DNA of 56,556 bases from Rhodospirillales bacterium (lineage in GTDB: Bacteria > Pseudomonadota > Alphaproteobacteria > Reyranellales > Reyranellaceae): NCBI GenBank assembly GCA_947466085.1, contig CANIEC010000010.1, forward strand, positions 1-56,556, read 5' to 3'. Below the pieces are notes generated by a model. That model saw only the letters and a program-made list of their open reading frames with translations. It was not told where the DNA came from and did not search any database. Below are positions 25,949 to 55,195 of this stretch, one piece after another. Every line of letters starts with the position of its first letter. Within the stretch, counting starts at the first letter, position 1. The translations under genes and the position numbers were made by a program.

Positions 25949-27091
25949 ATGACCGGCAAGCCGCTGGAAGGCATCCGCGTCCTCACGCTGGAACAGTTCG
26001 GCGCCGGCCCCTATGGCACCATGTTCCTGGCCGAGCTGGGCGCCGAGGTGATCAAGATCGAGGCGCCGCAGGGCGGGGATCCCTCGCGGCAGGTCGGGCC
26101 GTACAAACTCGGCGAGAACGACAGCGAGTATTTCCAGGCGTGGAACCTCGGCAAGAAGAGCGTGACCCTCGACATGAAGTCGGCGGAGGGGCGTCGGCAG
26201 TTCGAGGCGCTGGTGAAGGGCGCCGACTGCGTCGTGAACAACATGCGCGGCACTCAGCCGGTGAAACTCGGGATCGACTATGCGAGCCTGAAACACCTGA
26301 AGCCCGCGATCGTCTGTCTGCACATCTCCGCCTACGGCCGAGACAACGAGCGCAGAGACTGGCCCGGCTACGACTTCCTGATGCAGGCCGAGGCCGGGCT
26401 GATGGAGCTGACCGGTGAGCCCGACGGGCCGCCGACGAGGGTCGGCGTTTCGATGATCGACAGTATGAGCGGCCTGACGGGCATCGTCGGTCTCCTGAGC
26501 TGCCTGCTGCGCGCCCGAACCACGGGGCAGGGCTGCGATGTCGACACCTGCCTCTATGACGTCGCCATGCACCAGCTCACCTATCCCGGCCTCTGGTACC
26601 TGAACGAGGGCGATGTCTCGCCGCGCGTGCCGCGAAGCGCGCATCTTTCGCTGGCGCCGGTCCAGACCTTCCCGACGAAGGACGGCTGGATTTTCATCAT
26701 GTGCATGACGCAGAAATTCTGGCTGAACCTCTGCGAAGTGACGGGACGTGGCGATCTCGTCGCCGATCCGCGCTTTCCCGATCCCAACACGCGGGCGCGC
26801 AATCGCGCTTCGATGTCGGCCGAACTCGACGTGACGTTCCGCACGCGCACGACGGCGGAGTGGCTGGCCGCGATGAACGGGCTGCTGCCGGCGGCGCCCG
26901 TCTATCGGCTCGACCAGGCGCTCGACAGTTCGTTTGCGAGCGAGACCGGCATGGTCGCCGCCGTGCCGCATCCGGTGAAAGGCGAGCTGCGTGTCCTCGC
27001 CAATCCGCTGCGCATCGACGGCGAGCGACTGGCGCAGTCCGCCTGCGCAGCCCTCGGCGCCGACAACGAAGAACTGCTGGGCAAGTCATGA
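25949..27091 (+). CDS. CaiB/BaiF-family CoA transferase (first of two)
   Basis: The 380-residue protein is a class III CoA transferase, which moves CoA between carboxylic acids. It starts MTGKPLEGIRVLTLEQFGAG and holds the GAEVIKIEAPQGGDPSR and LGKKSVTLDMKSAEGR motifs, with the catalytic aspartate expected in the YDFLMQAEAGLMELTG region. A GTG at 25943 overlapping the previous TGA is an alternative start. The downstream gene encodes a paralogue with a four-base overlap, so the two may form a heteromer or act in sequence. Confidence 0.9.
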   Translation: MTGKPLEGIRVLTLEQFGAGPYGTMFLAELGAEVIKIEAPQGGDPSRQVGPYKLGENDSEYFQAWNLGKKSVTLDMKSAEGRRQFEALVKGADCVVNNMRGTQPVKLGIDYASLKHLKPAIVCLHISAYGRDNERRDWPGYDFLMQAEAGLMELTGEPDGPPTRVGVSMIDSMSGLTGIVGLLSCLLRARTTGQGCDVDTCLYDVAMHQLTYPGLWYLNEGDVSPRVPRSAHLSLAPVQTFPTKDGWIFIMCMTQKFWLNLCEVTGRGDLVADPRFPDPNTRARNRASMSAELDVTFRTRTTAEWLAAMNGLLPAAPVYRLDQALDSSFASETGMVAAVPHPVKGELRVLANPLRIDGERLAQSACAALGADNEELLGKS

Positions 27092-28197
27092 TGAAACTTC
27101 AGGGCATCAAGGTCGTCGATCTCTCCTGGTTCCTGCCGGGCCCCTATCTCACCACCTCGCTCGCCGATCACGGCGCCGAGGTGATCAAGGTCGAGCCGCC
27201 GGGCGAGGGCGATCCCGGCCGCCACATCCTGCCGCCCGACCAGCGCACCTCGGTGTTCTTCCGCAACATGGGCCGCGGCAAGAAGAGCGTCGTGCTCGAT
27301 CTCAAGAGCGAGCAGGGCCGTGCCGATCTCTTCCGTCTCGCCTGCGAGGCCGACGTGCTGGTCGAATCGTTCCGACCCGGCGTCGCCGCCCGCTTCGGCA
27401 TCGGCTACGACGCCGTCGCCGCGAAGAACCCCGGCATCGTCTATTGTTCGATCAGTGCCTTCGGCCAGGACGGCGCCTATCCCGGCCGTGCCGCGCACGA
27501 TCTTGCACTGGAGGCGATGACCGGCGTGCTGAGCCTGACCCTGGGCGACGACGGCCGGCCGGCGATCCCCGGCATCCCGGTCGCCGATCTGGTGAGCGGT
27601 CTCCACGGCCTCGCCGGCGTGCTGATGGCGCTGCTGCGCCGCAAGGATACAGGCCGCGGCGACTACATCGACGTCTCGATGCACGAATCGCTGATGGCCT
27701 CGTGTGCGAACGTCGTCGGCACGACCTTCGCCGAGAACAAGGCGCCTGATGTGAAGCAGCAGCGCACGACCGGCGGTTCGGCCTTCTACCGCGTCTACGA
27801 CACGTCCGACGGCCGCCAGCTCGTGATTGCGGGCCAGGAGATGAAGTTCATCAAGAATCTTTTGGGAGCGCTCGGCAAACCGGAGATGGCCGGGCTCTGC
27901 GAATGGCCTGGCGCGCATCAGAAGCCGGTGGTCGACTTCCTCGCCGGAACCTTCAGCTCGAAGCCGCTCGCCCACTGGATGGACACCCTCGCCACGCTCG
28001 ACATCTGCTACGGCCCGGTCAACACGCTCCCCGAAGCCATCGCAGACGCCAACCTGCAGAAGCGCGGCTTCATGGTGACCGACGTGACCGGCCGCCTCCA
28101 CTTCGGCCCTGTGGTGCGCTTCAAGGACGAACCATCGAGCCCGGTCTATCGCGAGCCGCTGCTGGGCGAGCATACGGAGGAGGTACTCAAGCGTTAG
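27088..28197 (+). CDS. CaiB/BaiF-family CoA transferase (second of two)
   Basis: The 369-residue class III CoA transferase starts MMKLQGIKVVDLSWFLPGPY and has GAEVIKVEPPGEGDPGR and GKKSVVLDLKSEQGR near residue 65. The catalytic region around HDLALEAMTGVLSLT carries the conserved aspartate. It is related to, but clearly different from, the preceding copy. Its start overlaps that gene by four bases. Four bases after its stop begins the repeat that brackets the GIY-YIG gene. Confidence 0.9.
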   Translation: MMKLQGIKVVDLSWFLPGPYLTTSLADHGAEVIKVEPPGEGDPGRHILPPDQRTSVFFRNMGRGKKSVVLDLKSEQGRADLFRLACEADVLVESFRPGVAARFGIGYDAVAAKNPGIVYCSISAFGQDGAYPGRAAHDLALEAMTGVLSLTLGDDGRPAIPGIPVADLVSGLHGLAGVLMALLRRKDTGRGDYIDVSMHESLMASCANVVGTTFAENKAPDVKQQRTTGGSAFYRVYDTSDGRQLVIAGQEMKFIKNLLGALGKPEMAGLCEWPGAHQKPVVDFLAGTFSSKPLAHWMDTLATLDICYGPVNTLPEAIADANLQKRGFMVTDVTGRLHFGPVVRFKDEPSSPVYREPLLGEHTEEVLKR

Positions 28198-28200
28198 AGG

Positions 28201-28272
28201 AAAGGTCCCTCGCTGCGCTCGGGATGACAGTCATGGTTGAAATTGTCATCCCGAGCGCAGCGAGGGACCTTT
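28201..28272. repeat. REPIN-like perfect inverted repeat (29-bp arms, left of GIY-YIG gene)
   Basis: Two perfect 29-base arms (28201-28229 and 28244-28272) flank a 14-base loop. The left arm begins AAAGGTCCCTCGCTGCGC and ends GGGATGACA. The right arm overlaps the last codons and the stop of the GIY-YIG gene on the minus strand. Confidence 0.9.
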
Positions 28273-28560
28273 GCCAACGCCCGTCTCAAGCAAATCGGCC
28301 CAAGTCGGATTGGCCGCCTCGACCAACGCATCCTTCTTGGATCGTCGCCAGCCTTTGATCTGTTTTTCCCGCACGATCGCATCTTCGATCTGCTGATGCT
28401 CCTCGGCGTAGACCAACGTATGCACGCGATACTGCCGCGTGAAGGCGCCGCCCGTGCCGGCGCGATGCTCAGCCACTCGCTTTCCCAAGTCATTCGTGAC
28501 GCCGACATACATCACGTTCCGCTTCACGTTCGTGAGAATATAGACGTAGTAGGTGAACAT
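28246..28560 (-). CDS. Small GIY-YIG nuclease-domain protein, bracketed by inverted repeats
   Basis: The 104-residue protein is a single GIY-YIG domain of the short stand-alone type: VYI at residues 6-8, YVG at 18-20, the conserved Arg28, Glu65 in REKQIKGW, and Asn84 in NPTW. All expected catalytic residues are present. Its last eight codons (KGPSLRSG) and stop are supplied by the right arm of the 28201-28272 repeat. Another copy of the same repeat (28571-28667) begins 11 bases upstream of its start. A paralogue at 54850-55140 is about half identical and has the same arrangement with a different repeat. The biological role is unknown; mobility or repeat processing is possible. Confidence 0.87.
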   Translation of the reverse strand: MFTYYVYILTNVKRNVMYVGVTNDLGKRVAEHRAGTGGAFTRQYRVHTLVYAEEHQQIEDAIVREKQIKGWRRSKKDALVEAANPTWADLLETGVGKGPSLRSG

Positions 28561-28570
28561 CGGCCGGCCG

Positions 28571-28667
28571 AAAGGTCCCTCGCTGCGCTCGGGATGACAA
28601 TTTTTCGTAACGAATTGTATGCGTCAACAACCCAAGATTGTCATCCCGAGCGCAGCGAGGGACCTTT
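28571..28667. repeat. REPIN-like perfect inverted repeat (29-bp arms, right of GIY-YIG gene)
   Basis: The arms at 28571-28599 and 28639-28667 are identical in sequence to those at 28201-28272, but the loop is 39 bases and unrelated. It lies upstream of the GIY-YIG gene and five bases after the 3' end of the acyl-CoA dehydrogenase gene. Confidence 0.9.
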
Positions 28668-28672
28668 TGTTG

Positions 28673-30466
28673 CTATGCCGCCACCAACGCCGTCGCCCTC
28701 GCCAACGGCACCGGCGCGTCGTCGAGGAGGAGGTTGATCGCTTCTTCCTCCCAGCCCTGCTCGCCGAGCGACAGCGGGTCCTGCGGGGCCAACCGATGCT
28801 CGATGACGAGGCGTGACAGGAGCAGGCGGCGGGCGTCGCCGCCTTCGGCGCCGAGGGTCGCGCCTTCCCAGGCCAGGAGTGCCGCCGTCGTGGCGTGATA
28901 GAGCGCGCCGGCGGCGAGGCGGGAGCGCTTTTCCTGTTTGGGGTCGGCGGCAACCGCCTCGACGAATCGTTCGACCCGGTCGAGCGTGGCGCTGAGCAGG
29001 CCCTTGTACTGGCCGGGCAGGGCGCCACTCGGCTCGTACTTCGCCTTGAGCGCAGCGGAGAGCGTCTTGTGGCCGCCCGACTTGCCGACGGCGCGCTGTA
29101 CCACGTCGAGCGCGTTGATGCTGGAGGTGCCCTCCCAGATCGTGCCGATCTGTGCGTCGCGCACCAGCCGTGCCGTCACCCATTCCTCGATGTAACCGAT
29201 GCCGCCGCGGACCTCGAGGGCGGCGCTGGCGACTGGGATGTTGTCGCGGCAGGCGCGGAACTTGTAGACCGGCGTCAGGATGCGCAGCAGGTTCGCCGCC
29301 TCCTTGTCGCCCTTGTCCGCGCGGCCCATCGCGTCGGCGGAGAAGGCGAACATCGACAGCGCTTGCTCGGTCGGCAGCATGATCTTCATGAGCTGGCGGC
29401 GCAGCAGCGGGTATTCCGACGTGGGTTTGCCGAAGGCGCGGCGGCCGCGTGCGGCGGCCAGCGCTTCGTTGAGGCAGCGGCGCATCATCGAGGCGGCGCG
29501 CACGCCATGGCTCAGCCGCGACAGGTTGACCTGGCTCATCATCTGCTTGAAGCCGTGGTTCACGTCGCCGACCAGATAGGCGGTGGCGCCGTCGAGCACG
29601 ATCTCGCCCGACGCCATGGAGCGCGTGCCGAGCTTGTCCTTCAGGCGCACGATCCGGTAGCTGTTGCGGGAGCCGTCCTCGAGGCGCCGCGGCAGGGCGA
29701 ACATGGCGAGTCCCCGTGTGCCCGCCGCTGCGCCGCGCGGGCGCGCGAGGATCAACGCGATGTCGGCATCGGCATGGCTGCAGAACCACTTCTGGCCGTA
29801 GATCTTCCAGCGCTCGATCCCATCGGCGCCGACGGCGATGCGCTCGGCCTCGGTCTCCAGCGCGCCGACGTCGGAGCCGCCGGCCTTCTCCGTCATGAGC
29901 TGCGCGCCCTTCATCATGTGGGCCGGGTCCTGGCTCAGCAGCCGGTCCATCAGGAGGCGCTTCAGTTCGGGCGAGGCATGGGTCTTCATCGTGAAGTTCG
30001 ACGTGTCCGACATCGAGACCGGGCACATCAGGCCGAACTCGCCCTGCACGAACAGATAGGTGAAGGCGTACTTCACCAGCGGATGGGCGGGCTCCGCCAT
30101 GCCGAGCACGCCGGCGCGATGGCTCATCGCGTGCAGGCCGAATTCCTCGTAGGCGATCTTCTCCATCTCGCGATAGGCGGGATGATAGTCGATCCAGTCC
30201 TCATCGCGGCCGAAGCGGTCGCGCGGCTGCAGCACCGGGACGTTGCGGTCAGCGATCATCGCCAGCTCGTCGAGCCGGCCACCGGCCAGCCCGCCCAGCC
30301 GTTCGAAATGCGGTGTCATCTGCCGCAGCAGGGCGGGCTCCATGTAGAGCCGCATCAGGTCCTGCAACTGCCGGTCGATCGAATAGAAATTCTGGCCGTG
30401 CACATCGGCGGCGATGTGATGCGCGCCGTGCGGCCCTTCGTTCCGTCCGTGGTTCATGTCGGGCAT
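28673..30466 (-). CDS. Acyl-CoA dehydrogenase family protein, AidB-like
   Basis: The 597-residue protein is larger than typical acyl-CoA dehydrogenases and matches the AidB/isovaleryl-CoA-like branch: an N-terminal extension, LMCPVSMSDTSNFTMKT near residue 155, the flavin motif QLMTEKAGGSDVGALETEAE near 200, and KWFCSHADADIALILARP near 233. The C-terminal half includes a NLLRILTPVYKFRACRDNIPVASAALEVRGGIGYIEEW segment, the usual end of the dehydrogenase core, followed by about 130 further helical residues. E. coli AidB is linked to alkylation response; whether this is a metabolic enzyme or an AidB is not settled. Confidence 0.88.
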   Translation of the reverse strand: MPDMNHGRNEGPHGAHHIAADVHGQNFYSIDRQLQDLMRLYMEPALLRQMTPHFERLGGLAGGRLDELAMIADRNVPVLQPRDRFGRDEDWIDYHPAYREMEKIAYEEFGLHAMSHRAGVLGMAEPAHPLVKYAFTYLFVQGEFGLMCPVSMSDTSNFTMKTHASPELKRLLMDRLLSQDPAHMMKGAQLMTEKAGGSDVGALETEAERIAVGADGIERWKIYGQKWFCSHADADIALILARPRGAAAGTRGLAMFALPRRLEDGSRNSYRIVRLKDKLGTRSMASGEIVLDGATAYLVGDVNHGFKQMMSQVNLSRLSHGVRAASMMRRCLNEALAAARGRRAFGKPTSEYPLLRRQLMKIMLPTEQALSMFAFSADAMGRADKGDKEAANLLRILTPVYKFRACRDNIPVASAALEVRGGIGYIEEWVTARLVRDAQIGTIWEGTSSINALDVVQRAVGKSGGHKTLSAALKAKYEPSGALPGQYKGLLSATLDRVERFVEAVAADPKQEKRSRLAAGALYHATTAALLAWEGATLGAEGGDARRLLLSRLVIEHRLAPQDPLSLGEQGWEEEAINLLLDDAPVPLARATALVAA

Positions 30467-35989: not shown

Positions 35990-36088
35990 AAAGGTCCCTC
36001 ACTTCGTTCGGGATGACACCGGCTTTTGCATCGGCGCACTGCGCCAATCCCACCAATGTTGTCATCCCGAACGAAGTGAGGGACCTTT
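35990..36088. repeat. REPIN-like perfect inverted repeat (29-bp arms, covarying with 28201 family)
   Basis: The arms are at 35990-36018 and 36060-36088 with a 41-base loop. Compared with the repeat at 28201-28272, three positions differ (arm positions 12, 15 and 18), and in each case the opposite arm carries the matching change, so pairing is kept. It lies between convergent genes, with no gene inside. Confidence 0.9.
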
Positions 36089-54761: not shown

Positions 54762-54842
54762 GAGGTCCTTCGCTGCGCTCAGGACGACCTGGGGTAGGTT
54801 CCTGTACTGCATTTTGTCGTCCTGAGCGCAGCGAAGGACCTC
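54762..54842. repeat. REPIN-like perfect inverted repeat (27-bp arms), left of second GIY-YIG gene
   Basis: Perfect arms at 54762-54788 and 54816-54842 flank a 27-base loop. The left arm begins GAGGTCCTTCGCTGCGC and ends CTCAGGACGAC. It shares its GTC(A/G)TCC...GAGCGCAGCGA core with the 28201 family but differs at several fixed positions (T/C, A/G), so it is a distinct variant. Confidence 0.9.
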
Positions 54843-54849
54843 ACGCCAG

Positions 54850-55140
54850 TTACTCGCTCGGCATCAGATCTCGAAATTCTGGATTGATCGTACGCACGAG
54901 CTCGTTCTTGCGTTCGCGCCGCCAGCCCTTCAGCTGCTTTTCGCGTGCGATGGCGTCGTTCGGATTGTCGTATTCCTCAGAGTAGACCAGCCGGGTCGCC
55001 CGGTATCTCTTGGCGAACTCGCTGCCTTGCCCGTTCCGGTGTTCCCAGATCCGGCGTTCGAGATAGCTCGTGACGCCGATGTACATCGCGTTTCCGGAGC
55101 CGCTGACCAGAATGTAGATCCAGTACTGGCGGGGGCCCAT
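54850..55140 (-). CDS. Small GIY-YIG nuclease-domain protein (second copy), next to a repeat
   Basis: The 96-residue protein has IYI at residues 8-10, YIG at 20-22, conserved Arg30, Glu67 in REKQLKGW, and Asn86 in NPEF. It is about half identical to the copy at 28246-28560, with the same length and active-site pattern. Its 3' end lies eight bases from the repeat at 54762-54842, and another arm of the same variant follows its start. This parallels the first copy but with a distinct repeat sequence. Function unknown. Confidence 0.87.
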   Translation of the reverse strand: MGPRQYWIYILVSGSGNAMYIGVTSYLERRIWEHRNGQGSEFAKRYRATRLVYSEEYDNPNDAIAREKQLKGWRRERKNELVRTINPEFRDLMPSE

Positions 55141-55152
55141 CTCTGAGGTCCT

Positions 55153-55195
55153 TGTCTGGCCGCTCGGTGAGGTCCTTCGCTGCGCTCAGGACGAC
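55153..55195. repeat. Direct copy of a repeat arm plus flank
   Basis: This 43-base stretch matches 54746-54788 except for one base (C/T at the sixteenth position). It contains one 27-base REP arm (55169-55195) and 16 bases of flanking sequence. A partial arm start (GAGGTCCTT) lies immediately before it at 55145-55153. Confidence 0.85.

Follow-up and report, generated by a model that had tools for sequence, protein, structure and literature searches.

A short GIY-YIG nuclease gene bracketed by a hairpin repeat resembles a REPtron without an HUH transposase

We describe a short GIY-YIG nuclease gene that lies between copies of a palindromic repeat scattered through its genome, in a 56,556-nucleotide stretch of a Rhodospirillales contig (CANIEC010000010.1) that we refer to as the window. 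The unit works like a REPtron and is not a member of the RAYT group. In the reading that we favour, with a probability of about 0.6, the gene and the inner arm on either side of it form the GIY-YIG counterpart of a REPtron: the nuclease would cut its own hairpin repeat, and repair would spread that repeat. A REPtron-like architecture with a GIY-YIG domain in place of the HUH domain had been proposed in an earlier sequence-only reading of this DNA, and it is borne out by bracketing within the genus and beyond and by co-variation of protein and repeat within the genus.

The window unit and its protein

The gene is an open reading frame for 104 residues on the minus strand (28246..28560, stop included), and Pfam matched its product to GIY-YIG with 61.9 bits, in agreement with the sequence-only reading that a complete GIY-YIG protein is encoded here. 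On either side of the gene, at 28201-28667, lies a head-to-head pair of the same 29-nt repeat arm, TGTCATCCCGAGCGCAGCGAGGGACCTTT. Pair A consists of an outer arm at 28201..28229 (minus strand) and an inner arm at 28244..28272 (plus strand), which are 100% complementary over their 29 nt; the inner arm has its tail towards the gene and overlaps the gene's 3′ end. Pair B repeats the arms of pair A, with an inner arm at 28571..28599 (minus strand), tail towards the gene and 10 nt from the ATG, and an outer arm at 28639..28667 (plus strand), and in its extended version reaches 34 nt at 97%. The GGACC tails of the inner arms face the gene on both sides, as had been described. The same description had placed the gene exactly between perfect 29-bp inverted repeats; the arms are indeed identical and fully complementary, but the last codons lie within the repeat, which at 28246-28272 encodes GPSLRSG and the TGA stop. 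The arrangement also contains a 30-nt direct repeat, with copies at 28200..28229 and 28570..28599, and the whole unit occupies almost the entire gap between two convergent open reading frames (26701-28197, plus strand, and 28673-30466, minus strand). C termini resembling the SLRSG of the window protein occur at L037, L041, L069 and L071 (SLRSG) and at L044 (SLRSE).

Each window pair consists of two opposed REPs and a spacer, which is the definition of a REPIN, and the gene is bracketed by a genome-scattered repeat, as in the architecture of a REPtron. The head of the arm is TGTC, one of the heads of CGTC-tagged REPs (CGTC, TGTC or CCTC). Its stem is made of 4 bp, a tandem G.A and 2 bp, with a loop of 3 nt and a CC(T) tail, and the whole repeat pairs form a long hairpin when folded (z -14.15 and -13.13). 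In the source genome assembly (5.17 Mb, 89% complete), 155 copies of the 25-nt arm core were counted with up to three mismatches (82 on the plus and 73 on the minus strand), against 0 copies of a backwards control in the same 5.17 Mb, so the window repeats are not there by chance.

A further unit, distinct from the first, spans 54764-55195. It has an outer arm of the flavour GTCGTCCTGAGCGCAGCGAAGGACC at 54764..54788 (minus strand), an inner arm at 54816..54840 (plus strand), a 96-residue GIY-YIG open reading frame at 54850..55140 (minus strand, stop included) and, on the opposite side, an inner arm at 55171..55195 (minus strand); the tails of both inner arms point to the gene. A head-to-head repeat pair without a gene (GTCATCCCGAACGAAGTGAGGGACC) is found at 35993..36085. 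The source genome as a whole has five PF01541 matches, comprising four short genes and one UvrC-sized frame, and all four short genes are bracketed, each with its own repeat flavour; the weakest of these brackets, at L002, has an inverted score of 19.

The GIY-YIG catalytic set of the window protein is intact. The protein has the conserved Tyr, Tyr, Arg and Glu of the superfamily, and among 44 aligned sequences, including the window protein, Y7, Y18, H32 and E65 are invariant and R28 is conserved in at least 90%. An AlphaFold2 model built from this 44-row alignment has a pLDDT of 88, with low confidence in the repeat-encoded tail (residues 96-104), and its best matches among solved folds are UPF0213 BH0048 (1zg2), Slx1 and UvrC, with an E value below 0.001 for UPF0213 BH0048 alone. 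Beyond GIY-YIG, the Pfam search of the window protein gave a weak match to T5orf172, and neither the HUH (Y1) domain that defines RAYTs nor NUMOD or any other DNA-binding domain was among its matches; NCBIfam returned a sub-threshold match to an intron endonuclease and nothing else. With no additional DNA-binding domain, specificity would have to reside in the GIY-YIG domain itself. The nearest named relatives of the window protein, among the best 80 of 477 relatives, belong to Reyranella, which we assume to be the genus in question.

Bracketing, pairing and the repeat hairpin

To survey bracketing, we collected 136 PF01541 matches (E ≤ 0.001) in 41 genomes and dropped 38 UvrC-like matches, whose open frame exceeds 600 residues, along with another five (G029:C11:149823, G031:C197, two rows of G025:C95, and G025:C193). 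This left 93 places, 61 in 25 genomes of the same genus and 32 elsewhere in the order and class. The 300-nt flanks of each place were aligned, each to the reverse complement of the other, and an inverted flank score of at least 17 was the threshold for bracketing. Within the genus, 48 of 59 scorable places were bracketed, with two more at contig ends, and 46 of 59 reached a score of at least 20 when direct repeats were also counted. The 11 misses were three class X genes, three genes of other GIY-YIG types (L097, L099 and L103) and five members of the family itself (L042, L052, L075, L095 and L104), with partial arms at L042 and L075. Outside the genus, half of the places (16 of 32) were bracketed at the same threshold (class A, 13/25; class B, 3/4; class X, 0/3), some through inverted repeats that lack a clear GTC head (L036, L040 and L105). 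The prevailing orientation is that of the window unit: by a rough motif match, 52 of the 64 bracketed places had the GTC or CTC head outward and the tail to the gene, four had the head inward and eight were unclear. The distance from arm to open reading frame in these other loci ranges from tens of nucleotides to more than 100 nt.

A set of named loci, the best 80 of 477 GTDB relatives matched by short exact peptide patterns, gave a similar picture, with 51 of 78 scorable loci bracketed at a score of at least 17. Ten near relatives in this set, which share 70% or more identity with the window protein, overlap the genus set, some on the same contigs, and when they were left out 42 of 68 loci were bracketed. 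Enrichment of flanking repeats near homologues, the check that the sequence-only reading had suggested, was strongly positive both in the genus and beyond it. Judging by record titles, bracketed loci among these best 80 of 477 come from Bacteroidota, Clostridia, Chloroflexi, Verrucomicrobia, Gemmatimonadota, Omnitrophota and Proteobacteria. Chance flanking was rejected as an explanation on the basis of controls, in which random spans in the fetched loci reached a score of at least 20 in 4 of 930 cases and genes neighbouring the genus loci reached 17 in 2 of 187 cases; for the named set, a score of at least 17 was reached by one random span in 800 and by four neighbouring genes in 240. We also rejected the idea that bracketing is a property of GIY-YIG genes at large, as class X genes (L047, L073, L076, L079, L110 and L123) were bracketed in none of six cases and E. 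coli yhbQ, with a flank score of 8, was unbracketed. Most class X proteins have FERYLKSGSG or a similar motif, and the class serves as a natural negative control. Together, these data indicate that the bracketing is real and general and is unlikely to be due to chance.

Five records hand-picked from 25 among the matches listed, scored with 400-nt flanks, gave 52.5 for Neisseria gonorrhoeae, 42 for Azospirillum lipoferum, 31 for Novosphingobium aromaticivorans, 26 for Sinorhizobium meliloti pSymB and 17.5 for Planktothrix. The Neisseria relative is an open frame with 43.5% identity to the window protein over 82%, and its bracketing arms, CGTCATTCCCGCGCAGGCGGGAATCC, are dRS3-like. A classic-form arm, CGTCATCCCCGCGAAGGCGGGGATCCA, brackets L056, a relative from another family. 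One N. gonorrhoeae record (L296, NZ_CP119142.1) is chromosome-sized (2.17 Mb), is filed as a plasmid and has 17 annotated features. In A. lipoferum 4B, the bracketed GIY-YIG gene (L298, 1489-1782) is flanked by sufB and sufC, and on a Planktothrix plasmid a family member (L300, 1501-1785) has an MmeI-type restriction gene on one side and drmA of DISARM on the other, with several TGTCATTCTGAG repeats around it.

Proteins and repeat flavours are paired within the genus. Across pairs of loci from different genomes, protein identity correlated with arm similarity (Mantel test on genus loci bracketed at a score of at least 16; r = 0.587, n = 49, 0 of 5,000 permutations), with arms trimmed by script and with at least two poorly trimmed loci, L068 and L102, kept in. 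The correlation was 0.664 after dereplication at 80% (n = 25) and 0.704 at 70% (n = 13). For 30 of the 49 genus loci, the nearest protein from another genome had an arm within the closest 10%. Outside the genus, the correlation was weak (r = 0.214, n = 17, 167 of 5,000 permutations). Two clades have distinct protein motifs: class A (YVYIL..GVTNDL..REKQIKGW..NPxWxDL) has mostly GTC-headed arms, and class B (RCADGSYYxGSAR..ERQIKGWSRAKKEALI) has CTC-headed arms in the genus.

The hairpin of the repeat is conserved. We gathered 95 arm copies with the middle of the arm left free (a backwards seed pattern yielded six). Positions 8 and 20 form CG in 63 copies and TA in 31, or 94 paired against 73.4 expected, and positions 11 and 17 form GC in 88 and AT in four, or 93 paired against 88.4 expected; positions 12 and 16 showed no covariation in these 95 copies (90 paired, 90.1 expected). 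The tandem G.A pairs are present in 91 of the 95 copies, and the loop is G-N-A, where N is C in 47, T in 29, A in 16 and G in three. For the class-B repeat, 41 distinct copies, drawn from 42 among the matches listed, contain 36 different inner stems, and 33 of them are fully paired, compared with a mean of 0.3 and a maximum of 3 in shuffles. Their loops are GNA in 34 of 41. The energy model assigns one 29-nt arm an unremarkable stability (z -0.20), but it may underrate the G.A pairs and the GNA loop of the arm; GCGNAGC is a very stable DNA mini-hairpin. These patterns of pairing suggest that selection on the repeats acts on a folded single strand, which would be DNA rather than RNA.

Movement, copy number and competing explanations

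Units are present in some genomes and absent from others at orthologous sites. At the window site, G015 (flank identity 91-92%) carries a single gene-less repeat pair in place of everything from the first copy of the 30-nt direct repeat to the end of pair B, the difference corresponding to 28201-28570; this contrast could equally well reflect gain of the unit or its loss through recombination between direct repeats. A half-arm scar marks the window site in G008, and in G003 the flanking genes are about 0.2 kb apart with the arm absent by eye; in the remaining genomes one flank or the spacing differs. At the site of the second unit, inspection by eye showed one degraded arm in each of G008 and G015 and an empty site in G003 and in G010. 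In G013, the flavour GTCATTGCGAGC occurs twice (up to one mismatch), both copies bracketing one short (77-residue) GIY gene, with no copies beyond this bracket, as if the unit and its repeats had arrived together. Two species, G005 and G017, carry different GIY-repeat units at the same intergenic site (L067, 4026-4244; L071, 1299-1517), where the left flank is 88% identical between them. Four genes have a head-to-head repeat pair on both sides; at L051 and L071 the pair is directly duplicated together with its spacer, and at L001 and L093 the spacers are unrelated. Carriage by plasmids or phages was rejected as the main vehicle: 37 plasmid-collection and 12 phage records match, several of the 25 plasmid-collection matches listed are megaplasmid- or chromosome-sized, and none of the 12 phage-record matches spans 80% of the query.

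Genomes rich in repeats but lacking the gene, which the sequence-only reading had named as evidence against its proposal, do exist. Three same-genus genomes whose sole PF01541 match (E ≤ 0.001) is UvrC-sized contain arm copies (G003, 44 copies in a 91% complete assembly; G007, 65 in a 73% complete one; G015, 74 in a 99% complete one). Class-B copies are likewise found in genomes in which we found no class-B gene (94 in G015, 75 in G000 and 67 in G008), and in some gene-less genomes these repeats are as common as in carriers of a class-B gene. Repeats that are present without the gene appear to outlast or outrun it, as non-autonomous elements can. The suggested comparison of copy number with gene presence gave a mixed answer. 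Copy number was associated with the cognate gene, but weakly, for F1/F2 (p = 0.006), for F3 (p = 0.024, with a gene set defined by the bracketing arms and hence partly circular) and for class B (p = 0.046, or 0.071 without the bracket copies, with a gene set defined by protein), and it was equally associated with the presence of a Y1 gene (p = 0.0085), which confounds the test.

This last association, together with the occurrence of Y1-family matches in 15 of the 25 same-genus genomes, is what one would expect if a RAYT or another transposase moved the repeats and these merely settled next to a GIY-YIG gene. We consider this highly improbable. A scan for F1/F2 arms at up to four mismatches found one at none of 22 Y1 loci (within L270-L292; of 24 in the genus), on which basis we rejected RAYTs as partners of the F1/F2 repeats; 12 of the 22 are bracketed, at a score of at least 25, by other repeats, several of the form GGACCGCG...GCGCTCA. 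Ten same-genus genomes with no Y1 match still hold the repeats, for example 172 copies in G006 and 93 in G002, and chance settling would yield no pairing between protein and repeat. It appears that these genomes house two REP systems side by side. Scarcely more probable is that the repeats serve only the expression of the gene, as Shine-Dalgarno sequence, stop codon or terminator, and spread by unrelated means. One window arm does provide the stop codon and the other ends 10 nt before the ATG, but elsewhere the arms can stand more than 100 nt from the open reading frame, and most of the more than 100 genomic arms are not beside a GIY gene.

A weightier alternative, although still an unlikely one, is that the protein is a housekeeping nuclease of the Ssn type. 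It would be a site-specific single-strand nuclease for which the scattered repeats are cutting sites and the gene-side repeats are targets or regulators; its function would be to police DNA that enters the cell or lies on the lagging strand, or else to adjust recombination, and spreading the repeats would not be its job. The dRS3-like bracket of the Neisseria relative is consistent with this, as are the cutting of single-stranded DNA and the effect on transformation that are reported for Ssn, and so is the finding of units at the same site in different species (L081, L089, L096 and L100, with both flanks in common, and likewise L070, L088 and L098). However, units differ among close relatives at both window sites, several copies are shortened (L096, L101 and L104) and G005 contains 11 PF01541 matches, including a UvrC-sized one, a pattern that resembles the behaviour of a selfish element.

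The reading as a GIY-YIG counterpart of REPtrons starts from the bracketing, the prevailing orientation of the arms, the flavour pairing within the genus, the conserved hairpin, the intact catalytic set and the presence or absence of units at orthologous sites. To these it adds recognition and cutting of the hairpin, a preference for single strands and spread driven by repair. Each nuclease would have its own flavour of CGTC-like palindromic repeat as partner. When the DNA is single-stranded, as on the lagging strand or during conjugation or uptake, the repeat would form a small hairpin, which its own nuclease would recognize and cut. The cut might then be repaired by copying another repeat or a repeat-gene-repeat locus, whereby repeat pairs would spread as non-autonomous elements and the gene would sometimes be inserted into a resident repeat site. 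GIY-YIG enzymes hydrolyse DNA and are not known to join ends, so spread of the repeats would require host repair. We think it likely that the nuclease recognizes its own hairpin repeat; that it takes part in spreading the repeat is an even bet. A broader proposal, to which we give somewhat less than even odds, is that short GIY-YIG nucleases of this family drive CGTC-class REPs in general across bacteria, homing into and spreading a hairpin repeat present in many genomic copies, and represent a second origin of REP systems independent of HUH transposases.

If these ideas are correct, bacteria arrived at REP systems twice, starting from two unrelated nuclease folds that occur side by side in one genome, and flanking DNA would reveal the targets of a large natural collection of sequence-specific hairpin nucleases. 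They would also be convenient to study at the bench, with one small protein, one short hairpin and many natural pairs.

Comparison with known systems

The repeats most similar to those of the window are the CGTC-tagged REPs, which have an 8-9 bp stem, a 4-5 nt loop and a CCA tail, which include the neisserial dRS3 repeats as CGTC-1, and with which, according to the available part of the 2013 article that described them, no transposase gene was found (Di Nocera et al. 2013, PMC3733652). Window-type repeats share with them a GTC, TGTC or CTC head tag, head-to-head dimers and a CC tail. They differ in that the window stem is broken by a tandem G.A and has a 3-nt loop, and in that a GIY-YIG gene is associated with the repeats here. 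If GIY-YIG nucleases are the partners of this class, which was described there with no dedicated enzyme, the question of what moves it becomes testable at the bench. Among the matches listed in a search of open-licence literature, no title or start of an abstract linked GIY-YIG with REP or dRS3. In the portions available, GIY-YIG and 'rayt' are merely separate rows of a gene table in PMC9465073 and co-occur through chance words only in PMC10928387, and no word starting with 'palindrom' occurs in the main text of the 2006 survey of GIY-YIG enzymes (PMC1564403).

The window protein has the fold and length of UPF0213/YhbQ; in contrast to the window gene, E. coli yhbQ stands outside any bracket and its product lacks the NPxWxDL end. 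A Neisseria GIY-YIG family, Ssn, reportedly cuts single-stranded DNA at a genomic repeat and is said to affect transformation (Chenal, Veyrier and colleagues, around 2025). Ssn resembles the window protein in being a short GIY-YIG protein, and the Neisseria frame bracketed by the dRS3-like repeat is, we presume, the published SsnA. Window-type nucleases and Ssn are probably one protein family, which may already have a described member in Ssn. Should that work report flanking repeats, the general link is known and the window unit is a new member; otherwise the link is new.

Free-standing GIY-YIG homing endonucleases (I-TevI and the phage Seg type) may have their gene inside their own target, and the window gene possibly does too. 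They differ from the window protein, in which Pfam found no NUMOD or other DNA-binding domain and whose target would be a multi-copy genomic repeat. The closest parallel in architecture is the RAYT/REP (REPIN) system, with the REPtrons of GTAG REPs. In both, a small nuclease gene is bracketed by a palindromic repeat scattered through the genome, the type of gene is matched to the type of repeat, and pairs of repeats behave as non-autonomous elements. The two differ in that the window protein has a GIY-YIG domain rather than an HUH/Y1 domain and is paired with another class of repeat, and the Y1-family genes in the same genomes stand apart from the F1/F2 arms.
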